In this document: one piece after another, positions 6,680 through 22,521 of the stretch
Layout: each line of letters begins with the position of its first letter
Position numbering within the stretch: position 1 is the first letter of the stretch
IMG/VR virus record: IMGVR_UViG_3300033153_004513
Coordinates: 1-31,016 of that record
DNA length: 31,016 nt
Origin: a virus
Strand: one strand, 5' to 3'
The notes under the pieces: model-generated
What the model saw: the letters and a program-made list of their open reading frames with translations, nothing else
The model's database searches: none
Told to the model about the DNA's origin: nothing
Program-made: the position numbers and the translations under genes

Positions 6680-6726
6680 TTTGGGCTCCTTTTTCTAAAT
6701 TAGATTGTATTCACAATTGTATCACA
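6677..6726 (-). repeat. Leader repeat, copy 1 (promoter plus ribosome site)
   Basis: About 50 bases upstream of the Gp157-like gene are almost the same as 10335-10384 upstream of the RecT-like gene, apart from a base of length variation in the A-runs. The block holds the extended -10 promoter, the palindrome ACAATTGT, an A/T-rich leader, AAAAGGAGCCC and the ATG. The similarity runs into the first codons (MNDEK). Confidence 0.85.
6716..6726 (-). promoter_or_regulatory. Extended -10 promoter, GTGATACAAT type
   Basis: On the minus strand TGTGATACAAT gives TG-n-TACAAT. No good -35 is seen at the usual distance. A second TACAAT lies 11 bases downstream, and an ACAATTGT palindrome overlaps the two, so this could also be an operator. 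It would drive the Gp157-like gene and those after it. Confidence 0.5.
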
Positions 6727-6727
6727 T

Positions 6728-6976
6728 TTATTGTTTCGGAAGCGGCCGAACTCCAACCACAATTCCGATTGATAGACCATGTTTTTTTATTGCATCATTC
6801 ACTTGCTTTGACTTCGGCCAGAAATTTTTCTTTTTTATCATTCGCCAGGACGTGCCATCAGAAATTCCCCATATCTCTCCTACCGCTTTGAATCCCCCTA
6901 AATGCTCTACTAGTCGATAGTCCTCTTTCATCTTTCTCCTGATTGCGTTCCGGCCGTGAACAGCGATTTTAGGCAT
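6728..6976 (-). CDS. Small protein with possible HTH
   Basis: An 82-residue basic protein. The centre, EHLGGFKAVGEIWGISDGTSWRMIKKK, looks like a helix-turn-helix in which WGISDGTSWRMI would be the turn and recognition helix. A second helix (SKQVNDAIKKHG) follows, and the tail is hydrophobic (GIVVGVRPLP). It could be a small regulator acting on the early promoters, including the one directly downstream, but this is inference. The start at 6976 is supported by AAGGAGG with six bases to the ATG. It overlaps the nuclease gene by 8 bases. Confidence 0.55.
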   Translation of the reverse strand: MPKIAVHGRNAIRRKMKEDYRLVEHLGGFKAVGEIWGISDGTSWRMIKKKNFWPKSKQVNDAIKKHGLSIGIVVGVRPLPKQ

Positions 6977-8132
6977 CGCTCACCTCCTTGTTGAACATGA
7001 TTTCTTGAGCTTTTTTATTTAGCTCTGAAATTTCTTCCTTGGGCGTTTTGCTGACCTTCCAATATAAATCCAGCAGTTCTGTTTCTGAAAGCTTGCCGAT
7101 AACAAAATTCTTCGGAAGCCGAAAACTGGTTTCTGTTTGAGACAACTTCACAAGCCTGAACTCAAATCCATCCTTGGTCAATTCTCGAATAGCTGGTTCG
7201 TCAATGAGAGAATCCCAAGCCCAAGGATATTCAAGAACCAAACGTATCATGGCGCCTTTCAATAAGTCAGGCTCTGGTAGTATTTCTTTTATTTGATCGA
7301 TAATATTATCTTTAGAGGTCAGTTCAAGAGACAAGTCCACATAGGAGCGAATGTTTTTCAATTCACGCCAATCCAGCTTCGTTTCTCCCTGTTCAATTTC
7401 AGCGATCACAAAATACTTTTTTTCATTCGCCTCTCCGAAATCCACTCTCTCAATTGAGCCAGAATACACTATCGGGGGATGATTGTCTTCATTCAAGTTT
7501 TGCTTTTGATGAATATGTCCTAATGCCACATAATCGAATCCGCTGTTCAGTAATATTGTTTTTGATAACAGCATATCGGCGCCGAGCTCGACCGGCTGAC
7601 CGCTTGAGAATTTCGCTCCGCTTATCATGCAGTGGCCAAGAAATATTTTGGGAATTGCTGGGTTTAGTTTTTTGATTAGATCTTCGATCTGATTTGAGAC
7701 TTGATCGAATTGTGATTTGTGTACCCAGGGCAAGCAAACCAGCTCATATTCAGAAGTTGTAATCAAGCTGATTTCATCAATAACGTGAATATATTTTGTG
7801 TCAAACGTCGAAAATTCTGTTAGTGAGTGAGCTTTTGATGTGCCGCCAATGTCGTGATTTCCTACCAATAAATAAGTTGTAATTTTTTGTTTGTTCAATC
7901 GTAAAATTCTTTCTTCCCATTCTCTTTGAAAAGTAGGAGAGGGATTATTGTTTTTATAAGCATCTCCAGCGAAGAGCACACAATCCACCCTCTCTTCAAT
8001 TGCACAGTTTACAATTTCATCCAGAGAATTCAGAAAATCGATAATGCGAAGAGGGAATCCTGTTTCTGAATCTCTTCGACCATAGTTCGCTGTATTTATA
8101 TGAGCGTCCGCAAAATGAAGAATTTTCACCAT
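6969..8132 (-). CDS. SbcD/Mre11-like DNA repair exonuclease
   Basis: A 387-residue calcineurin-like phosphoesterase. All the metal-binding motifs are visible: FADAHIN (D9, H11), FAGDAYKNN (D57), GNHD (91-94), GHCMISG (H167) and GHIH (H206, H208). This is the Mre11/SbcD arrangement, a Mn-dependent nuclease that normally pairs with an SbcC/Rad50 ATPase. No SbcC gene is in the window, so it may use a partner outside it or a host protein. The capping region after residue 240 has few landmarks. The ATG at 8132 has AAGGA upstream; an in-frame TTG at 8156 is less likely. With RecT and the RecU-like nuclease it forms a probable recombination/replication module. Confidence 0.85.
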   Translation of the reverse strand: MVKILHFADAHINTANYGRRDSETGFPLRIIDFLNSLDEIVNCAIEERVDCVLFAGDAYKNNNPSPTFQREWEERILRLNKQKITTYLLVGNHDIGGTSKAHSLTEFSTFDTKYIHVIDEISLITTSEYELVCLPWVHKSQFDQVSNQIEDLIKKLNPAIPKIFLGHCMISGAKFSSGQPVELGADMLLSKTILLNSGFDYVALGHIHQKQNLNEDNHPPIVYSGSIERVDFGEANEKKYFVIAEIEQGETKLDWRELKNIRSYVDLSLELTSKDNIIDQIKEILPEPDLLKGAMIRLVLEYPWAWDSLIDEPAIRELTKDGFEFRLVKLSQTETSFRLPKNFVIGKLSETELLDLYWKVSKTPKEEISELNKKAQEIMFNKEVSDA

Positions 8133-8158: not shown

Positions 8159-8344
8159 TTACCAGTCGAGATCAAGTTGTTCTGGGTCTGGCTCTTTGAG
8201 TTCTTTTTCTTTCGAGATAATTTCATTCGATAAGTCAGGATTGCAATCACATCGAACCAGACGTCCAAATCCCGCATCAAAAACACCAAGCTCTTTTCGA
8301 AGCCAGCCTATTCCCTTGCATTTTTCGCAATTATCATCGACCAT
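8159..8344 (-). CDS. Small zinc-knuckle protein
   Basis: A 61-residue protein, MVDDNCEKCKGIGWLRKEL onward, with CEKC near the start and CDC about 28 residues later: one zinc knuckle reminiscent of DnaJ-type CxxCxGxG motifs. The end is acidic (EPDPEQLDLDW). I use the ATG at 8344. The frame stays open to a GTG at 8536, but that 64-codon extension is Arg/Ser/Pro-rich and coincides with strong inverted repeats, so I read it as non-coding RNA. The ribosome site is weak (AAGAAGAGACAGCTA before ATG). It ends 26 bases before the nuclease ATG. Function unknown; adaptor or nucleic-acid binding is plausible. Confidence 0.55.
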   Translation of the reverse strand: MVDDNCEKCKGIGWLRKELGVFDAGFGRLVRCDCNPDLSNEIISKEKELKEPDPEQLDLDW

Positions 8345-8732
8345 TAGCTGTCTCTTCTTATTAGCCGGTGGATGAAGCCAGGAAGCATTTCCCCTACCCC
8401 TTGGAGTCCTTAGAGTAGAGGGAATCTTTAGCCGTATGGAGCCAGCCGAGGTTTTCATCCTGTCACATTGTCTGCCCGTGGACGGGTGTAACACTTTCGC
8501 CCTTCCCGATTGATCTGAACCATTTCGATTCACCACGTTGAAAAAGCATCATTTTTATATCTCGTAATTCGAGGCAAGCGTATCCTTGCCACCAAAGGCG
8601 ATAAACACCTTTCCCGATCTTTTTGACGACCTCACGGGGGGTTAGTCTTTGTTGTCAAGTTCGAGGACTCTTCATCCTCACCATCAATATTGTGGGTGAC
8701 TATCCCTGTTGATCGAGAGCTTGAAACAAAAA
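8345..8732 (-). ncRNA. Candidate structured RNA, about 390 nt
   Basis: No convincing gene lies here, but the minus strand can form a dense series of stems. The pairing arms, in plus coordinates, are: 8389-8401 with 8412-8424 (12 pairs, one bulge); 8370-8376 with 8454-8460 (GGATGAA/TTCATCC) enclosing it; 8462-8467 with 8487-8492 and, inside, 8475-8479 with 8482-8486; 8516-8521 with 8527-8532; 8561-8564 with 8570-8573; 8573-8578 with 8585-8590; 8594-8598 with 8608-8612; 8663-8667 with 8675-8679; and a long-range pair 8639-8647 with 8698-8706 (8 of 9). Some of these compete. It lies directly upstream of the zinc-knuckle/nuclease genes, so it could be a long leader or a separate RNA. I recognise no known class. 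Confidence 0.45.
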
Positions 8733-8753
8733 AGCTCCCGTGAGTAGGGAGCT
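8733..8753 (-). terminator. Rho-independent terminator
   Basis: AGCTCCC/GGGAGCT arms with a 7-base loop, followed on the minus strand by TTTTTTG. It ends the short RNA interval below the RecT-like gene. Confidence 0.75.
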
Positions 8754-8832
8754 GAACTTTGATTGACTTTTGTTCTAATTTCTGTTAGAATTCTGTCAGT
8801 GGTAGTTCGCCCCTACCGCTATTTCGAAAAAT

Positions 8833-8857
8833 CCTCACCTCACACTAAACGGTGAGG
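8833..8857 (-). terminator. Terminator below the RecT-like gene
   Basis: CCTCACC/GGTGAGG arms with an 11-base loop. It is flanked by A-runs and T-runs on both sides, so it could act in either direction. On the minus strand it lies 38 bases after the RecT-like stop and is followed by ATTTTTC. It also lies only about 15-20 bases after a possible promoter at 8878-8886. Confidence 0.75.
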
Positions 8858-8877
8858 TTTTTCGTTTTAGTAGGAAT

Positions 8878-8886
8878 AGTATAACA
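8878..8886 (-). promoter_or_regulatory. Possible extended -10 promoter
   Basis: Minus-strand TGTTATACT (TG-n-TATACT), preceded by G, matches the GTGnTA pattern of the other early promoters. No clear -35. It would start the short RNA at about 8871, just after the RecT-like stop. Confidence 0.35.
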
Positions 8887-8894
8887 CACAATTT

Positions 8895-10337
8895 TTACAT
8901 GTAACCCAAAATCCGTGCCATTCCCATTTGAACGTCACCGCCCATTGTCTTGACGATCTTTCGAAACTCATCTCGGCTCGTGGGAACTTTTTCCAGATCA
9001 ATATATTTATAGGCTGTTTCCCAATCCAGAGCGTGTTTCGGAGTGTATTGAGGAAACTCTTCGACCATCGCTCTTAGGGCGTCTTTTTGATTATCGGTCA
9101 AACCTTTATCATCTAGTGCTTTTTCTTCGGTCGTGATCTTATCCGACTTCGGCGGTGATTTCTTTTTTTGCTCCGAAGCGTCTTGCTTCTTTTCTTCTGT
9201 TTTTCCTTCCGATCCTTCCTGAACTGGTTTGACTTTTGCTTCATTCTTCGGCTCCTTCTTTTTTGTTTTTTCACGCTCGATCTTTTCCTTATCCGTTTCA
9301 AAGAGCCGACCATAAGCTTTCGGAGCGATTTCTTTTAGTTCAGTCAGAACGCCGTCAGCTAAAATTTCTTTAGCGTGATTGAAGTATCTCAAAGCCCATT
9401 CTTCGTTCAGCTCTCGAGGTGTGAATTGAGAATAAGCCAAGAGTTCGGCGGCCACGAACGCATCCTGGGCCAACTCCTGTTCAACCATCTTTTCACAAAT
9501 TCCTTTCCAGAATTTCGGATTCATGCGTTCGTGTGATTCTCCGAATATCGACGGATCCTGACCAAAGGATTGAGCGTCGGTCACATCTGAAAAATCAACG
9601 TCAATCGCACCTTTGGAATCATGAATATATTCTTCGAATGTTTCCCCTCCGGCTCCGGCTGAGCCGCCAAAGTGCAAAGAGAATTTGCCTTTCAGGGCTT
9701 CCATCAAGGCTCTTTTTTTGACTCTATTCACATGTGGCATTTTGTTATTTCGTGGCATCTTGGAGATCTCTTGCTGAGTCAAGACACCATATCCAATTGA
9801 ACAAGGGGGATTTCCCACAATCAAGAGAGCTTCATCGGCTGTTTTCTCAGAGTCAATGAGAGTGTTGAATGTCTTTCTCCATTCATCCATTGTGGCTTTA
9901 TCGAAAACTCTACTCTCAAAAGCCAAAGCGTCTTTTGGAATCATCAAGTTGGTTTTCTCGTGTTCTGTGAGCTCTCGTTCGTCGCTCCACCATTCAGAAC
10001 CACGAGCAAGAGCCTGTTCGTTGGCGTGTCGAATAAGACCACGACGACCAGGCATCCATGAAAAATGACGCTCGTTATTTTTAATCTGAATCCAAGCCCA
10101 GATTTCTCCGGAGAACGGGTTCAAGTCGTGAGATATCGCCAACTGGGCTAAGTGCATGGCTTCTCCAGGACTCAGTTTTATCTCTGATTTATCCAGAGCT
10201 CGAATTCTTCGACTCATTCCTCGGACAGCTTCAACGTTGCCGTATGGGGCAAGCGGATTTGTTCCAAGAAATTCGTTCGCTCTGGCCAGTTGAGTCTCAT
10301 TTAGTTCGATACCATCTGATTCTTTTTCGTCATTCAT
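8895..10337 (-). CDS. RecT-like single-strand annealing protein
   Basis: A 480-residue protein. The N-terminal core holds SPGEAMHLAQLAISHDLNP, then SGEIWAWIQ and FSWMPGRRGLIRHANEQA. These match the RecT/Bet layout (helix, LNP, then a strand and an aromatic-rich P-G-R-G block). Such proteins anneal single strands in phage recombination. The middle (about 345-415) is a lysine/glutamate-rich flexible linker. The end (about 416-480) is a small helical domain with a hydrophobic tail ending MARILGYM. At 480 residues it is longer than usual for RecT because of this C-terminal half. It shares its leader with the Gp157-like gene. The family call is moderate; a RecT-type subfamily with a fused domain is the best reading. 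Confidence 0.65.
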   Translation of the reverse strand: MNDEKESDGIELNETQLARANEFLGTNPLAPYGNVEAVRGMSRRIRALDKSEIKLSPGEAMHLAQLAISHDLNPFSGEIWAWIQIKNNERHFSWMPGRRGLIRHANEQALARGSEWWSDERELTEHEKTNLMIPKDALAFESRVFDKATMDEWRKTFNTLIDSEKTADEALLIVGNPPCSIGYGVLTQQEISKMPRNNKMPHVNRVKKRALMEALKGKFSLHFGGSAGAGGETFEEYIHDSKGAIDVDFSDVTDAQSFGQDPSIFGESHERMNPKFWKGICEKMVEQELAQDAFVAAELLAYSQFTPRELNEEWALRYFNHAKEILADGVLTELKEIAPKAYGRLFETDKEKIEREKTKKKEPKNEAKVKPVQEGSEGKTEEKKQDASEQKKKSPPKSDKITTEEKALDDKGLTDNQKDALRAMVEEFPQYTPKHALDWETAYKYIDLEKVPTSRDEFRKIVKTMGGDVQMGMARILGYM

Positions 10338-10384
10338 TTTTGGGCTCCTTTTCTAAATTAGATTGTATTCACAATTGTATCACA
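10335..10384 (-). repeat. Leader repeat, copy 2
   Basis: Near-identical to 6677-6726, including the ACAATTGT palindrome, the two TACAAT boxes, the AAAAGGAGCCC ribosome site and the first codons (MNDEK). This suggests copying of a regulatory leader between two early genes. Confidence 0.85.
10374..10384 (-). promoter_or_regulatory. Extended -10 promoter, GTGATACAAT type
   Basis: Minus-strand TGTGATACAAT, followed 11 bases later by a second TACAAT. It lies immediately below the stop of the winged-helix-like gene and would drive the RecT-like gene. No strong -35 is seen. Confidence 0.5.
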
Positions 10385-10911: not shown

Positions 10912-11064
10912 TTATTTCTTCTTAGCAATTTTTTGATACTTGTCACGGATACAAGCTCGAATTGCTTCACTGATATTTTCGAGCCCGTCGTGTTTTTGAA
11001 TTTCTTTGAGTCGTCGCAATTCTTCCTTTGAAACTCGAACCCTGATAACTAGATCTCTCGGCAT
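10912..11064 (-). CDS. Small ribbon-helix-helix-like protein
   Basis: A 50-residue protein with the ribbon-helix-helix layout: a strand (DLVIRVRVSKEE), a first helix (LRRLKEIQKH), a turn with GLENISEAIRACI, and a basic tail (KYQKIAKKK). Such dimers bind DNA operators. I start at the ATG at 11064 because AAGGAG stands 6 bases upstream. A longer frame to 11199 would overlap the next gene and lacks a site. It could regulate the early promoters in this block; target unknown. A gap of 62 bases separates it from the winged-helix-like gene, and nothing else was identified there. Confidence 0.65.
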   Translation of the reverse strand: MPRDLVIRVRVSKEELRRLKEIQKHDGLENISEAIRACIRDKYQKIAKKK

Positions 11065-11077
11065 GTGATCTCCTTGT

Positions 11078-11329
11078 CTATTTTTCATGAACGTAATAAA
11101 TCGTTTCGTGTTTTTTTGCCTTGTCGATAATTTCTTGAAATTCGGGTTGAAAATGTTCTGTGGCTTTATCAGCAACCCGAGCGATAATTTTACAGCCACA
11201 TTCGATACATCCTTCTATATCTGCCTGAATAGCACTTTGCGGTCGTCTGTTTTTTCCAACCGTTTGAACCAGAGTGACACCAATCGCCAATACAACCATT
11301 GATTTTTTACAGCGAACGCATACGCTCAT
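11078..11329 (-). CDS. Small cysteine-rich protein
   Basis: An 83-residue protein with CVRC (4-7) and, later, CIECGC (about 41-46): two cysteine knuckles that could bind one zinc. A hydrophobic strand between them (MVVLAIGVTLVQTVG) and a charged C-terminal helix complete it. The ATG at 11329 has AAGGAAAG upstream and follows the previous stop by 14 bases. No family recognised. Confidence 0.5.
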   Translation of the reverse strand: MSVCVRCKKSMVVLAIGVTLVQTVGKNRRPQSAIQADIEGCIECGCKIIARVADKATEHFQPEFQEIIDKAKKHETIYYVHEK

Positions 11330-11888: not shown

Positions 11889-12385
11889 TCGATTGTCCAG
11901 TTACATCCGAAGAGCTCTTCCTTTTTTTCTTCCCAAAATTCATCGAGGATTTCCAGCTCTTCCTCACTCATTTCGTCAAGCGGTTTTTGTTCGGGCTCTT
12001 CAAGGTCCACGTTTTCCAATTCGGAGCGTAGCGATTCAACCTCACACGCTCTGTTTTCCAGAAGTTCTCCGGTCGGACTGTCTTGAAGTGAGTCCGGCAT
12101 ATTTGAGCGTTTATCGTAACAATCAGAAGATAAATTCTCCAAATCCCCGATTGCTCCTTCTCTCCAATCTCGAAGATCGTCACCCGTGACCGGAGTGTCT
12201 TCAAGAGATTCTTTCAGCAAAAAGAGCTCCGAATAAAACTCGCTCTGGGTTAGCTGGGAAGATCTAGGCCTGGTCAGGCTGTATCGCTTCGAACCAAAAG
12301 CGAACTTCCACCAATAATAAGATTCTCCAGCTTTGCAAACCGGATTGTCTTTTCGAGCTTTTTTTACATGATGTACTCTTGGCAT
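11885..12385 (-). CDS. Conserved phage protein, MPRVHHVKKARKDNP type
   Basis: A 166-residue protein. Its first 45 residues (MPRVHHVKKARKDNP, then GESYYWWKFAFGSKRYS and RPSQLTQSEF variants) match a start I have seen in many phage proteins of unknown role. The rest is an acidic coiled coil with alternating Glu/Leu (about 75-150). A zinc-like function is not apparent. It has an AGGAG site. Upstream, transcription must pass the hairpin at 12417-12454, which could act as an attenuator. Confidence 0.6.
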   Translation of the reverse strand: MPRVHHVKKARKDNPVCKAGESYYWWKFAFGSKRYSLTRPRSSQLTQSEFYSELFLLKESLEDTPVTGDDLRDWREGAIGDLENLSSDCYDKRSNMPDSLQDSPTGELLENRACEVESLRSELENVDLEEPEQKPLDEMSEEELEILDEFWEEKKEELFGCNWTIE

Positions 12386-12416
12386 TTTTTTCTCCTAAAA
12401 TAATTTGATAAGAAAA

Positions 12417-12454
12417 AACCCCGACTGCACCCATCCAAGGAATCAGTCGGGGTT
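12417..12454 (-). terminator. Strong hairpin/terminator at a promoter start
   Basis: An 11-base perfect stem (AACCCCGACTG/CAGTCGGGGTT) with a 16-base loop, followed on the minus strand by TTTTTTC. It would end transcripts from the gene at 12500-12802. It also begins at about the first base expected from the promoter at 12460-12488, so it could attenuate the next gene or release a short RNA. Confidence 0.85.
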
Positions 12455-12459
12455 ACACA

Positions 12460-12488
12460 ATCGTATCACAATCGTATCACGGTGTCAA
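12460..12488 (-). promoter_or_regulatory. Promoter TTGACA-17-TACGAT
   Basis: A perfect -35 (TTGACA), a 17-base spacer and an extended -10 TGA-TACGAT. The 11-base unit GTGATACGATT occurs twice here in tandem, which may be operator sites. The expected start is about 12453, at the foot of the hairpin above. Confidence 0.7.
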
Positions 12489-12499
12489 ATCAGCTTCTT

Positions 12500-12842: not shown

Positions 12843-12871
12843 ATTGTATCACGGCTGTACCACAATGTCAA
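12843..12871 (-). promoter_or_regulatory. Promoter TTGACA-17-TACAAT
   Basis: A perfect -35 and a near-consensus extended -10 (TGA-TACAAT) with a 17-base spacer. The spacer begins TTGTGGTACA, the same motif as in the promoter at 13586-13614, so a shared operator is likely. Confidence 0.85.
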
Positions 12872-13585: not shown

Positions 13586-13614
13586 ATTGTAGCACACTTG
13601 TACCACAAAGTCAA
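13586..13614 (-). promoter_or_regulatory. Promoter TTGACT-17-TACAAT
   Basis: -35 TTGACT, a 17-base spacer starting TTGTGGTACA, and an extended -10 TGC-TACAAT. It drives the two genes at 13528-12927. It is probably the first early promoter after the late block, and it shares its spacer motif with the one at 12843-12871. Confidence 0.85.
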
Positions 13615-13700: not shown

Positions 13701-13739
13701 AAAGACCTCATGTGAACACGAGCGTCACATGAGGTCTTT
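13701..13739. terminator. Strong bidirectional-looking terminator
   Basis: A 15-base perfect stem (13701-13715 with 13725-13739) and a 9-base loop. The plus strand follows with eight T, the minus strand with TTTGATTT. It ends the long late operon after the lysis genes, and may also stop transcription entering from the left. Confidence 0.85.
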
Positions 13740-17211: not shown

Positions 17212-19143
17212 CTATACTTCACGAGCGACCAACCGGGTTTTTGCCAGATATCCTCGGGTCAGGTCTAGAATCATTTTCTCTACAATACCGTTTAGCTCGT
17301 TGCTTTTCAAAGTAGTGGTTTGAATAATATCATTCGGCTTGATAGTTGTCGGGAATAGAGTCATTTCCTGCTCATATCTGATTTGAAAATAATCTCTCAA
17401 TAGATCTAAAATTTCTTCCACGTTGTCAGGCGAAACCAGCGTGGCCGAAGGAACATTTTTTGCGTTCAAATCGGTCGAGGAACTAATCCCGGACTCGATA
17501 AAAGTCCAACCTCTTTGACTGTCAATATACGGGTAGCCAGTTATGGTCACGACTCCCCCGGGAGCTGATACTTGAAGATTTACAGAGTTTGACCCAAAGA
17601 CATAAGCTCCCCCAATTTCAATTTCAAAAGCATCGTCTTCGGTAACAATTTGAAAAGCATCGTCTTCGGTTGTCAGACTAGCCTCTAAGTAACCCGGGCC
17701 TGCCACGACGATTCCATAAAGCGGTTGATCGAAAACAATTTTATGAAGCCCTTCAGCTAAATCTTCCTCGTAAATATCTAGTAGCTCCGTACTCTGAGTA
17801 TAAAGGTGAGATACCAACTCAATCGAGGTCACCAGCGGTTTCAATTTCACCGGATTCGCCGAAGTTTTTTCCGTATCCTCAACGTCAAAATCCTGGACCG
17901 GGAGAACGTACTGCCCCGGCGTCCGACCGAACGTGATTGACCCAGCGAATGTTCCATCCTCCCCTTGAGCGAAATCTGTTTCATCCATTTCTCGGTAAGT
18001 AAAATTCCGCTCCAACCCGGTATCATCCAGCGGAGTCCGGCGATATCTATTAGCAGTTAGTTCGGCCGAAGTCCGGAGGTCGGACCATATCCGGCAATAA
18101 GCCACGTCCAATTTTGCTGATTTCGTTTCATTGTCTGGGTCTTTTGCGATTATTGAATTCCCAGCCAAAGTGATATCATCAACCAGTGAGCTAATATCCT
18201 GTGTTCCCAAAGACACTCCATCAAATTCCACCTCAAACTCTTCGGCATCATTTCGGTCCACTAAGATTACTAGATGATGAAAATCATAATCAGATAAGTC
18301 ACCAAGAAGCTGTTTAGTTTCCCGATTCCCCGAATCATCTTCAATCTCAAAATGAAACGAATCCCAATCTATATCAGATATCAGACCATACCCAGCGTTT
18401 CCATCATTCCAATCTTCGCATAACAAAAGGCTGGCCCAAGCATCGGACCCAGTTTTCAACCTGAGTAAAATTTCAATTGTAAAATCACTTCCAACCGGAG
18501 AATAGCTGGGGAAGGTCATTGAATCAGCGGCGGCATCTGCAAAAATAGCGTAATAATCTGATATCTCTTCCCGGACGATCTGCAAGTCTTCATTTCGAGC
18601 GGCCACGGCCACAGCTCCACAAGCGAAACAAATTTGTTGAAGAGCTGACCGATAAGTTCCCGGGGGAATCCAACCTTTCAGGGTCTTGGCTCCAATATAA
18701 GAATCTAAATCGTAGGTGAGATCAAGCCCACCCAGAACCAAATCCAAGATATCTTCAACGGAGGTGAGAGTTTCAAAAAACGCTCCCTCGAAAGGCGTCT
18801 TATCCAGAACTCCCATGATATCCATAGCCTCAAAGCTGTATTCGTATTCAGAAATATTTTCCCAATCATCTAGGAAATATTTTCCCAGCAATACGTCTTC
18901 GCCGCCCACCACTTCGTAAGCTGTTATTGGCGGCCGATCTGCCAGAAGATCTAAATAAGACCCAGAGAACATTGAAAAATCGTCGTCGTAACTGACCACC
19001 TGAAATTCAAGTTTCCCGATTGGAATCTGAACGCTTATCGGATGAATCTCTTCAATAACTTTAGCTGAAACAACCTCCGCTTTTTCGAAGGTGAGCGTGG
19101 TCGCTCCTAAAGTCATTACGAGTTTTGGGTAGGTGGTTGTCAT
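17212..19143 (-). CDS. Tail hub-like protein with inserted LamG-type domain
   Basis: A 643-residue protein. Residues 1-195 and about 408-643 look like a baseplate hub/tail-associated protein: a beta start, LLGKYFLDDWENIS, PGTYRSALQQICFACG (about 161-176) and VEKMILDLTRGYL near the end. Between them, about 198-392, lies a concanavalin/LamG-type beta-sandwich (FADAAADSMTFPSYSP, then FTIEILLRLKTG, FHHLVILVDR, LDVAYCRIWSDLRT), a carbohydrate-binding fold. A micro-duplication TEDDAFQIVTEDDAFE occurs downstream. The hub probably bears the adhesion domain at the tail tip. The start at 19143 makes an ATGA overlap with the upstream gene. Confidence 0.65.
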   Translation of the reverse strand: MTTTYPKLVMTLGATTLTFEKAEVVSAKVIEEIHPISVQIPIGKLEFQVVSYDDDFSMFSGSYLDLLADRPPITAYEVVGGEDVLLGKYFLDDWENISEYEYSFEAMDIMGVLDKTPFEGAFFETLTSVEDILDLVLGGLDLTYDLDSYIGAKTLKGWIPPGTYRSALQQICFACGAVAVAARNEDLQIVREEISDYYAIFADAAADSMTFPSYSPVGSDFTIEILLRLKTGSDAWASLLLCEDWNDGNAGYGLISDIDWDSFHFEIEDDSGNRETKQLLGDLSDYDFHHLVILVDRNDAEEFEVEFDGVSLGTQDISSLVDDITLAGNSIIAKDPDNETKSAKLDVAYCRIWSDLRTSAELTANRYRRTPLDDTGLERNFTYREMDETDFAQGEDGTFAGSITFGRTPGQYVLPVQDFDVEDTEKTSANPVKLKPLVTSIELVSHLYTQSTELLDIYEEDLAEGLHKIVFDQPLYGIVVAGPGYLEASLTTEDDAFQIVTEDDAFEIEIGGAYVFGSNSVNLQVSAPGGVVTITGYPYIDSQRGWTFIESGISSSTDLNAKNVPSATLVSPDNVEEILDLLRDYFQIRYEQEMTLFPTTIKPNDIIQTTTLKSNELNGIVEKMILDLTRGYLAKTRLVAREV

Positions 19144-19619
19144 GTTCTTGCTGGCTCCCGGCCAATACAATTTACAGTCAATCCAGTGAAATAGTTTTTA
19201 TTTCCGATTTGTTTTCGCACCTTGTCGCCCACATTTGAAAAATATGCCTCGAAAGTATAAGGTGTTCCGGTTCCGTCCGGAACGGAAACTTCGTGAAAAT
19301 TCACTGATTCGGTCAGTTTCCTCCAAAGTCTCGCATATTCGTCGGTGTCAGTGATCGAGCCGAATAGTATTCGATAATTGAAATAAACTCCTATGAGTTT
19401 TCGGTGTAATTTTCCATCATTGGTTCGTTCGGCGAACTTGTCCAAAAAATCGGCTCGACGAAAAAGACCAATGATCGGAATATTGTATTCGTTACCATCA
19501 ATCAAAATCAGGGGAACGGGAGATAATACTGCAATATCCGGAACCCAGGCCCAGACATCACCCTCACCAGGAACTTCTACCTGATTATCACTAACTACAA
19601 CCCAAGCTTTACGCACCAT
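19140..19619 (-). CDS. Tail protein, paralogue of 22153-22521
   Basis: A 159-residue protein. From residue about 37 it aligns with the 122-residue product at 22153-22521: RRADFLDKFAERTNDGKLHR, then LIGV(Y/F)FNYR, ITDTDEYxRLW, YFSNVGDK and NYFTGLTVN. It adds 37 N-terminal residues. Both resemble the small conserved tail proteins (DUF6711-like in Firmicutes phages) that sit near the tape measure and hub. A distal-tail or tail-completion role is inferred. ATGA overlap with the hub gene. Confidence 0.7.
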   Translation of the reverse strand: MVRKAWVVVSDNQVEVPGEGDVWAWVPDIAVLSPVPLILIDGNEYNIPIIGLFRRADFLDKFAERTNDGKLHRKLIGVYFNYRILFGSITDTDEYARLWRKLTESVNFHEVSVPDGTGTPYTFEAYFSNVGDKVRKQIGNKNYFTGLTVNCIGREPART

Positions 19620-20080: not shown

Positions 20081-22156
20081 TTAGCTTATTTTTTCATCAA
20101 GCTCTTGAACCGCAACCGCCAGCATAGAAACCATAGCTCCTAAATCTCTGCCCTCGATTTCTTCGCCGTCAATTTTTTGCATTTTTCTTACAAAATCCGG
20201 TAGGGATTTATGGTCAATTTCCCCGTCTTTCCCTTTTATCTTTTTGATTTCTTCAAGAGCGTCACCTGTAAAAAATGGGGTTCGATCAACAAAATGTAAT
20301 GACGAAACCGTATCAACACAATAAAATAACGACCCGGACATTGTGATAAGATTTGTTCCTTCAGCCCATAATTCCAACATATCAGCATCAGCTCCAATTC
20401 TCACTTTCCCCGCCGCTGTGGTATCACCATCCATCATATAGATAAATGCGTTCGGGTCCGTGCTTTCAAATAGGGCAATAGCGTTGGCCCCGCCAGAGTT
20501 TACATCTAAAGCGTAACCGGGAACTCCCCCAATACCAAGCCTAGAATAAATTTCCACTTGGGAATTAGTGGTATCAGCAATAAGTACATCGCCGCCATCG
20601 GCATTTTGCCTAACCAGCAAGGCTTCGGTTGCGGTATTATCAATGATCAAATTGCCGTCAATTTGGTCGCCAGCGTTTTTCACATAATCATCCTCGACGT
20701 TGAATGTTCTGTTGGCCGCAATCGTTCCACCGCCAGAGAGTCCCGTTCCTGCGGTCAGAGTGACTGAGGTGTGGTCAATGTGTTCATTTCCTACAAAGCC
20801 TTGAAGGTTATCGTGTTGCATATCCCCTTCCAAGATCGCTCCGGTTTCAGCAAGAGTCTTTTTGACAAACGTATCATTTCCCGAAGCTACAAGAAAATCG
20901 TTGGCCGCATCTGCTAGTGTCTTCATAACAGCCCCAGCCGCCGCAACATTCGTGGTGTCAGTTATATCAGCCGTGGCTTCTATCCCGCCCAATTTTGCTA
21001 CCGCCGCATCGTCATAAGCGTTTGTGTCAGCTTCACCTTCGTAAGAGGCTTTGATCTCTGCCCCGGTTTGATCTGCGGTTGAACCATCTTCTACATTTAT
21101 ATCGCTCCGAACTTCCGCATAACTTCGGCCTTCTATTCCTACCGCTGTAAACTTTGCGTAGTCATTATTGGCGGCGTCGGCATCGTCCACTTGTAAAATT
21201 TTATCGTCGGCTATTCCAACATCAACCACAATCGCAATACTTATGCCGTTATTGAAAAAAGATAGTCCGACTGACGCCGTTCCCCACTTAGTAATATCGT
21301 TGGTATCATCCCACATCAACATTCTATCTGAGCCTGGGTCTGCCAAATTTTCAATCCCCAGGTGTGACAAGGCAAAACTTCGATTACCTGAAATATCGCC
21401 ACCACCAGATAATCCAGTCCCAGCGGATAAGGTAACTGAGGTGTGGTCGATATGTTTGTTGCCAACAAAGCCTTGAAGGTTATCGTGCTGTAAATCGCCT
21501 TCAAGAATCGCTCCTGTTTCTGCTAAAGTTTTCTTTATATAGGTGTTCGCTCCCGAAGCGATTATAAAATCATTTGCCGCCCCAGCCAGTGAATGTAAAA
21601 TATAATTTTCGTCCAATGCTCCATCGGGAATACCAGTAAAGTTTGAGCCATCAAAAGTGGGACTGGCTCCACTTACAACCGTCTGGTCAATGTACGAATG
21701 GTCGGCCCCGGTGCCAAGACCCTGAATATTCCCATGATCTATATCAGCTTCAAGAATTGCCCCCACTTCGGCAAGTGTTTTCTTGACAAAAACATCGTCG
21801 CCAGAGGCCACCAAAAAATCATGTTCCGCATCTGCAAGCGAATGGAGAATATAAGCCGCTCCGGAATGAGAGTGAAGGGCAGTTTCACTTCCGTCGGACA
21901 GCTCTTCAAGCTCTGACCCTGTGATATCTGTATTTCCATCATTTGCCGATATCACCGCATAATCCGCTCCGACCTGAACCACTTCCCAGCCGTCGTCGTT
22001 GTCGTTTCTTATCTTGCTAACCCACGACCCACCGCCGCCGCTTGTATCAATCCAGATCATTCCTCTGCCAACAGCACCAGGGTCTCCGGCTTGAACAAAT
22101 CCCGGGAGATGTAGCTGTTCATCTGTCAATGTAGCGTGTTCAATTTCAGGTGTCAT
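20081..22156 (-). CDS. Repeat-containing tail fibre
   Basis: A 691-residue fibre. The N-terminus (MTPEIEHATLTDEQLHLPG) looks like an attachment segment, followed by GMIWIDTSGGGG. Three repeats follow: LHSLADAEHDFLVASG..., LHSLAGAANDFIIASG..., MKTLADAANDFLVASG..., each running into KKTLAE(V/T)GAILE. Two of them continue through HDNLQGFVGN(K/E)H and AGTGLSGGG. A beta-rich, Gly/Asp section lies downstream (DNTATEALLVRQ, YALDVNSGGANAI). The last 70 residues include DALEEIKKIKGKDGE and a helix that may aid trimerisation. It shares an ATGA overlap with the upstream gene. Host-range role inferred. Confidence 0.8.
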   Translation of the reverse strand: MTPEIEHATLTDEQLHLPGFVQAGDPGAVGRGMIWIDTSGGGGSWVSKIRNDNDDGWEVVQVGADYAVISANDGNTDITGSELEELSDGSETALHSHSGAAYILHSLADAEHDFLVASGDDVFVKKTLAEVGAILEADIDHGNIQGLGTGADHSYIDQTVVSGASPTFDGSNFTGIPDGALDENYILHSLAGAANDFIIASGANTYIKKTLAETGAILEGDLQHDNLQGFVGNKHIDHTSVTLSAGTGLSGGGDISGNRSFALSHLGIENLADPGSDRMLMWDDTNDITKWGTASVGLSFFNNGISIAIVVDVGIADDKILQVDDADAANNDYAKFTAVGIEGRSYAEVRSDINVEDGSTADQTGAEIKASYEGEADTNAYDDAAVAKLGGIEATADITDTTNVAAAGAVMKTLADAANDFLVASGNDTFVKKTLAETGAILEGDMQHDNLQGFVGNEHIDHTSVTLTAGTGLSGGGTIAANRTFNVEDDYVKNAGDQIDGNLIIDNTATEALLVRQNADGGDVLIADTTNSQVEIYSRLGIGGVPGYALDVNSGGANAIALFESTDPNAFIYMMDGDTTAAGKVRIGADADMLELWAEGTNLITMSGSLFYCVDTVSSLHFVDRTPFFTGDALEEIKKIKGKDGEIDHKSLPDFVRKMQKIDGEEIEGRDLGAMVSMLAVAVQELDEKIS
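20764..21846. repeat. Internal fibre repeats
   Basis: Plus-strand copies at about 20764-20927, 21437-21599 and (shorter) 21719-21846 share long runs such as GTCAATGTG/GTCGATATG, TTGAAGGTTATCGTG and AAGAATCGC or AAGATCGC. They encode the KKTLAE(V/T)GAILE block. They could recombine to change fibre length. Confidence 0.75.
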
Positions 22157-22521
22157 GTATTTTCAGGTTCCCGAGCAATAAAGTTTACAGTCAATCCGGT
22201 GAAATAATTTTTGACGCCTTTCTTTTTTCGCATCTTGTCACCGACGTTCGAAAAGTAGGCCACGAATTCATAATCCCCGGCTTCATCCGGAACTATGACG
22301 GTATGAAATTCATTCGCTTCGGTCAATTTCAGCCAGAGTCGTTCGTATTCGTCGGTGTCGGTAATGGTTCCAAGTTTCAGTCGATAATTGAAAAACACAC
22401 CGATCAATTCCCTGTGAAGTTTTCCATCATTGGTTCGTTCGGCGAACTTATCCAAAAAATCAGCTCTTCGATCTATGCCAATCACTGGGATATCATAAGA
22501 GTTTCCGTCGATTCTTATCAT
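22153..22521 (-). CDS. Small distal-tail-like protein
   Basis: A 122-residue protein of the same family as the product at 19140-19619 (see there), without the N-terminal extension. It starts MIRIDGNSYDIPVIGIDRR. Its ATG is part of an ATGA overlap with the tape measure stop. In related phages a protein of this type directly follows the tape measure. Inferred role: distal tail or tail-tip component. Confidence 0.7.
   Translation of the reverse strand: MIRIDGNSYDIPVIGIDRRADFLDKFAERTNDGKLHRELIGVFFNYRLKLGTITDTDEYERLWLKLTEANEFHTVIVPDEAGDYEFVAYFSNVGDKMRKKKGVKNYFTGLTVNFIAREPENT

Follow-up and report, generated by a model that had tools for sequence, protein, structure and literature searches.

The gene-free gap ahead of the SbcD gene

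The window considered here, that is the whole stretch of DNA that was analysed, is a virus record of 31,016 bases whose credible genes are all on the minus strand. Genes for the head and tail lie at 15-31 kb, an endolysin gene comes next, and genes of early type are found at 0.5-12 kb, including those for a Bet-like recombination protein, an SbcD nuclease subunit, a resolvase, methyltransferases and a glucosyltransferase. The Bet-like gene (8895-10337, minus strand), whose product weakly resembles the phage recombination protein Bet (TIGR01913, E = 3e-4, under the curated cut-off), ends with its stop codon at 8895 and is separated by a 550-nt gap from the ATG at 8344 of a small gene (8159-8344, minus strand) encoding a 61-amino-acid cysteine-rich protein (CEKC...CDC), for which family searches gave no match. 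This is followed by the gene for the SbcD/Mre11-like nuclease subunit (6969-8132, minus strand; phrog_100, 5e-37; TIGR00619, above cut-off). The interval 8345-8732 makes up most of the gap, which is the longest interior gene-free gap in the window. An earlier sequence-only reading had placed this interval between a terminator and a nuclease operon, correctly given the terminator at 8753-8733 and the TIGR00619 assignment, and had seen in it a candidate for a large, densely paired RNA, possibly of a new class.

Does the interval encode a protein? The earlier reading saw no credible gene in it and that view holds, as each frame of 8345-8732 contains 5-6 stops, the codon-model scores are non-coding and the translated pieces match no family. 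The wider stretch 8345-8894 is also without a credible gene, and under a phase-specific Markov model all six frames of the gap score like wrong frames. A decayed or recoded gene could be read in the minus frame 8654-8466, where LTPREVVKKIGKGVYRLWWQGYACLELRDIKMML... runs between two TGA codons as a plausible-looking open stretch of 63 codons. The codon-model score of this stretch is, however, -0.06, whereas in-frame genes average 0.12 (5th percentile 0.03); there is no ATG, GTG or TTG near its beginning, and Pfam, PHROG and tblastn searches gave no match, such that this explanation is scarcely credible. Coding in any frame, a decayed gene and TGA read-through all go unsupported by the coding and family searches. 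A tRNA/tmRNA search returned nothing.

The individual stems that had been named are present. GGATGAA at 8370-8376 pairs with TTCATCC at 8454-8460, with a 12-pair hairpin at about 8388-8424 inside, and the long-range pairing of GGGTTAGTC (8639-8647) with GACTATCCC (8698-8706), which has one mismatch, is included in the MFE structure. The structure as a whole is nevertheless near chance. The minus strand of the 388-nt interval folds at -115.6 kcal/mol versus -106.3 +/- 6.0 for dinucleotide shuffles (n = 100), giving z = -1.55 with 6 of the 100 shuffles at least that stable, and the plus strand gives z = 0.08 against dinucleotide shuffles. Among 80 minus-strand windows of the same 388-nt length the mean z is -0.61 (sd 1.45) and the 25th percentile is -1.55, and because the interval thus sits at about the 25th percentile of its own strand its fold is unremarkable for this genome. 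The energy is therefore not clearly below either the shuffles or the genome background, and the large, dense RNA that had been suggested is not supported.

The most structured sub-domain of the gap is the 95-nt stretch 8368-8462 (minus strand), in which GGATGAA/TTCATCC surrounds the 12-pair hairpin (z = -2.58, 2 of 200 shuffles). This sub-domain, the length of the gap without genes and the occurrence of a gap, unrelated in sequence, before the SbcD unit of the relative G042 are the points that speak for a new class of large structured RNA. Set against them, the whole interval reaches only z = -1.55, and the sub-domain no longer stands out once it is folded as part of 8345-8470, for which z is just -0.63. 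In addition, the gap matches no family in Rfam 15 at gathering or permissive thresholds; over the leader described below, the lowest E-value was that of RNAI, with 14.8 bits versus a cut-off of 47 and E = 1.2.

Searches by DNA, by IMG/VR patterns and by flanking proteins in a phage collection and the relatives found no convincing homologue of the gap, nor was a homologous leader found among the related loci and the phage collection. Two 17-mer matches to the gap DNA occur, in L028 and L029, and the surroundings of the former are unrelated. No close relative emerged via SbcD, the Bet-like protein or a 245-aa early protein. The major head protein led to 80 related loci, in none of which is there a Bet-like gene and in only one of which, L110 of G042, is there an SbcD, with 47% identity. 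In this relative a 262-nt gap precedes a small gene and SbcD, and its sequence, which folds at z = -1.2, is unrelated and has no meaningful alignment to 8345-8732. With a fold near chance, no Rfam family even permissively and no homologue found, a new RNA class is very improbable here. The 388 nt are instead predicted from sequence to form the remainder of an untranslated leader with ordinary folding, of which only the first bases are given a predicted role, in a lock hairpin. A fold in a gene-free gap can look striking and yet be ordinary, with the true signal sitting just outside.

Predicted signals on both strands directly upstream of the interval

In a folding scan of the genome the lowest z of all, -7.3, belongs to the plus strand at 8625-9012, and the outlier region is 8727-8905, directly upstream of the gap interval. 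Here the plus strand carries a predicted promoter at 8763-8791 (TTGACT-17-TG.TAGAAT; score 14.5; start at about 8798). It is the best sigma70-like site among the roughly 31,000 plus-strand positions of the window, with a score comparable to the three strongest minus-strand promoters. A plus-strand terminator lies about 45 nt downstream of this promoter, and the predicted product is an RNA of about 70 nt (8797-8866, plus strand) consisting of two hairpins and a terminator, which folds at -27.9 kcal/mol (z = -6.4, 0 of 200 shuffles). Hairpin B (8798-8820) has the loop UUCGCCC, and hairpin A (8825-8864), which is also the terminator, has the loop UCACACUAAAC and is followed by UUUUUCGUUUU. YUNR motifs (UUCG, CUAA) are contained in these loops, such short motifs being common by chance; for the pIP501 target RNA, a U-turn loop is reportedly important, according to the title of a paper cited in PMC4981023. 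The same promoter-terminator scan also recovered a known phage small RNA, skipping-rope, in a relative, and 1.15 Mb of sequence from this phage and its relatives contained only about three separate places with crossed terminators and a strong antisense promoter. Judged on these sequence signals, the plus-strand RNA is probably real, whatever its action.

On the minus strand the predicted sense promoter lies at 8905-8878 (GTTACA-16-TG.TATACT; score 10.2; start at about 8871) and overlaps the 3' end of the Bet-like gene. It ranks 12th among minus-strand sites and is of moderate strength, while being by far the best in 8345-8910, and no good minus-strand promoter is found in 8345-8870. The leader from this start to its terminator (8871-8727) folds at z = -4.5 (0 of 200 shuffles), and the intrinsic terminator at 8753-8733 has the form AGCTCCC-TACTCAC-GGGAGCT then TTTTTG. 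The predicted transcripts of the two strands overlap over the whole plus-strand RNA, and each has its own terminator.

A second predicted pairing competes for the same bases. The antiterminator helix joins 8804-8817 to 8743-8758 through 14 pairs and uses up the 5' arm of the terminator; its upstream strand falls within the antisense overlap, and the terminator lies just beyond it. An equally strong antiterminator arises in 0-24 of 500 shuffles of the upstream sequence, depending on the stretch that is shuffled, and in strength it takes fourth place in a ranking of 105 terminator-like sites from this phage and its relatives.

The main rival to any regulatory interpretation of these signals is an ordinary operon boundary, in which hairpin A is a bidirectional terminator of the Bet-like operon, 8753-8733 is a second, tandem terminator, 8345-8732 is plain untranslated or decayed sequence, and the antisense promoter and antiterminator are coincidental. 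Hairpin A is indeed usable as a terminator on both strands, another plus-facing terminator without a promoter occurs in an all-minus gap at 13703-13737, the folding of the gap is typical of this genome and no homologue shows conservation. Such a boundary would, however, leave the SbcD operon promoterless, given the lack of a good minus-strand site in 8345-8870, and it requires the best plus-strand promoter and a top-4% antiterminator to coincide by chance within the same 150 bp. The longer T tract of hairpin A, moreover, faces the plus direction. It is a possible explanation, and a clearly less likely one than the attenuator considered next.

A predicted antisense-controlled attenuator

How might these elements work together? 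The reading preferred here, which is given about an even chance of being correct, is that the region between the Bet-like and SbcD genes may be an antisense-RNA-controlled transcription attenuator of the operon made up of the small gene and SbcD, similar to those of pT181 and pIP501. Minus-strand transcription, either from 8905-8878 or by read-through, would make the leader. In the leader alone the antiterminator (8804-8817/8743-8758) would compete with the terminator (8753-8733), and once it had formed RNA polymerase could pass through the gap into the cysteine-rich gene and SbcD. The 3' arm of the terminator would next be locked by the opening bases of the gap interval. The stronger, opposite promoter at 8763-8791 would give rise to the two-hairpin RNA of about 70 nt, complementary to the leader at 8798-8866, which would pair with the nascent leader, probably first at the loop UUCGCCC/GGGCGAA. 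As a consequence, the antiterminator strand would be unavailable, the terminator would form and the nuclease operon would be off. The signals, the folds and their mutual exclusivity come from computation; that both RNAs are made, that pairing is fast enough and that control runs in this direction are what we infer from them.

In predicted folding of the free leader, the antiterminator has a probability of 0.98-0.99 while the 3' end moves from 8742 to 8736. As the terminator completes, the antiterminator/terminator probabilities are 0.65/0.35, falling to 0.39/0.60. The antiterminator wins again after 8712 because the terminator's 3' arm, 8732-8740, changes partner and pairs with 8714-8722, at the start of the gap interval, in the lock hairpin (8740-8714); this hairpin is in the MFE structure once transcription passes 8712, and the terminator probability in the free leader is then 0.0. 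When 8798-8866 is blocked, as by full antisense pairing, the terminator once complete has a probability of 1.0 at 20, 30 and 37 C, and blocking the loop region of hairpin B alone has the same effect at all three temperatures. The antiterminator is thus predicted not to be formable with the antisense RNA bound. At equilibrium the predicted switching is only partial, since 35-60% of complete free leaders still form the terminator.

The earlier suggestion of a regulatory leader able to switch stands in part. A switch is indeed predicted, but it sits upstream of the interval that had been named, at 8727-8905, and needs a plus-strand antisense RNA that the earlier reading missed.

Two further findings favour the attenuator. 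The plus-strand promoter tops a window whose credible genes are all on the minus strand, and the promoter of the SbcD operon is the clearest early one to lack the GTGRTAC operator found at the other early promoters, which is consistent with a different control. Against the attenuator, any one of the signals would turn up by chance in a few per cent of cases and they were picked out post hoc, the minus-strand promoter is only moderate, and the relative with an SbcD gene, G042, has a gap in which no antisense/terminator device before SbcD was found.

The plus-strand RNA could also be real and act otherwise: it might target host or phage mRNAs in trans, block translation, lead RNase III to cleave the leader or interfere with transcription. 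A promoter, two hairpins and a terminator suffice for a small RNA gene, the similar antisense RNA of pSK41 blocks translation and not transcription (PMC5703833), and an antisense-oriented phage small RNA of another family, skipping-rope, is present in a relative. What such actions leave aside is the placement of the antiterminator strand inside the antisense overlap with the terminator just beyond it and, for translation in particular, that the start of the first gene lies some 450 nt further downstream, well away from the stretch of complementarity. This alternative is accordingly rated as unlikely.

Comparison with known systems and further features of the window

In pT181 (RNAI/repC) and pIP501 (RNAIII/repR) convergent antisense RNAs complementary to the leader bring about premature termination (PMC4981023, PMC5703833, PMC3753616). 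The phage locus resembles these systems in the sequence signals for an antisense RNA (about 70-140 nt across these systems) with its own promoter and terminator and complementarity to an untranslated 5' leader, and in having an intrinsic terminator in the leader, here 8753-8733 plus T tract, between the antisense target and the regulated gene. Recognition through hairpin loops and premature termination upstream of the gene are predicted here likewise, as is, from folding, an antiterminator that falls within the target hairpin, excludes the terminator and has its 5' strand inside the antisense target. Unlike the plasmid systems, the locus is in a tailed-phage genome, with an SbcD nuclease operon downstream and not a plasmid rep gene; its terminator is about 390 nt from the first start codon, there is no sequence relationship and the phage device is a predicted one. 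Because the downstream genes encode a 61-aa protein and SbcD, not a replication initiator, the device is best described as working like the pT181/pIP501 type and not as a member of it. In size and form the phage RNA, at about 70 nt with two stem-loops, resembles the antisense RNAs of pT181 (87 nt) and pSK41 (about 83 nt, two stem-loops) (PMC5703833).

Phages themselves provide further comparisons. In P4 immunity the CI RNA pairs with the leader (seqA/seqC) and causes premature transcription termination (PMC4825925), and an RNA pairing with a leader to end transcription early is also what is predicted here. CI RNA, however, is processed out of the very transcript that it controls, while the predicted RNA of the window has a promoter of its own and is read from the other strand. 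Three stretches of the gap do repeat, on the same strand, parts of the antisense RNA hairpins as direct repeats and would be further sites for antisense pairing; as antisense duplexes their energies are marginal, with about 4-11% of shuffles as good, and they are kept only as a lead. Lambda OOP and P22 sar are small antisense RNAs encoded by phages (PMC5415839), and they differ from the phage RNA here, as OOP works via decay of cII mRNA and sar on anti-repression, without a choice between antiterminator and terminator.

A broader proposal is that a tailed phage sets the expression of its recombination nuclease operon through an antisense attenuator of plasmid style that has a strong promoter on the opposite strand. 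Since the antisense RNA could act in trans, it could report phage copy number or give partial superinfection control, and the further targets in the gap would make the arrangement somewhat like P4 immunity. In this full form the proposal is doubtful. If the attenuator itself is real, it would mean that copy-number-style RNA attenuation has been carried from plasmids into a tailed-phage early region, offering a compact means of timing or dosing a DNA-repair nuclease and new natural attenuators for RNA engineering.

Skipping-rope RNA (RF02924) resembles the phage RNA as an antisense-oriented phage small RNA with promoter and terminator that occurs in relatives, and differs from it in place, sequence and fold; neither the plus-strand RNA nor any other part of the window matches the RF02924 model. 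In the relatives it lies at L023:18228-18324 (plus strand), also present as L024:228-324, and at L018:14851-14912 (plus strand). One match is above threshold and one scores 20.8 bits, both lie in antisense orientation immediately past the minor head protein gene, and each copy is provided with a separate promoter and terminator. Crossed terminators together with a strong promoter occur again in two related phage contigs (L089:1075-1203 and L090:5942-6070).

Several other features of the window concern early transcription. Direct repeats of the form GTGRTAC-N4-GTGNTAC lie between the -35 and -10 elements of the minus-strand early promoters at 12460-12488, 12843-12871 and 13586-13614, three exact occurrences versus 0 expected in shuffles. 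They are probably the operator of a phage repressor, for which the ribbon-helix-helix-like gene at 10912-11199 is a candidate. To the same set belong minus-strand sites at 6716-6725 and 10374-10383, near-identical copies of about 35 bp that lie upstream of two different genes. A possible second attenuator precedes the gene at 12385, where at 12415-12490 (minus strand) a strong terminator hairpin (CCCCGACTG...CAGTCGGGG TTTTTT) comes almost immediately after a promoter. The plus-strand terminator at 13703-13737 is very strong (-20.5 kcal/mol, T8) and lies in a gap between minus-strand genes with no strong plus-strand promoter nearby.

Two observations relate to coding sequences. In G042 a pentapeptide-repeat-like protein (L110:5949-6451) is encoded by tandem near-identical 15-bp units (SDANLLRANL...). 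In the window the proteins of minus-strand genes 19140-19619 and 22153-22521 both match one single gene in several relatives, at 42-61% identity, and the pair look, from sequence, like a duplication within the phage tail region.
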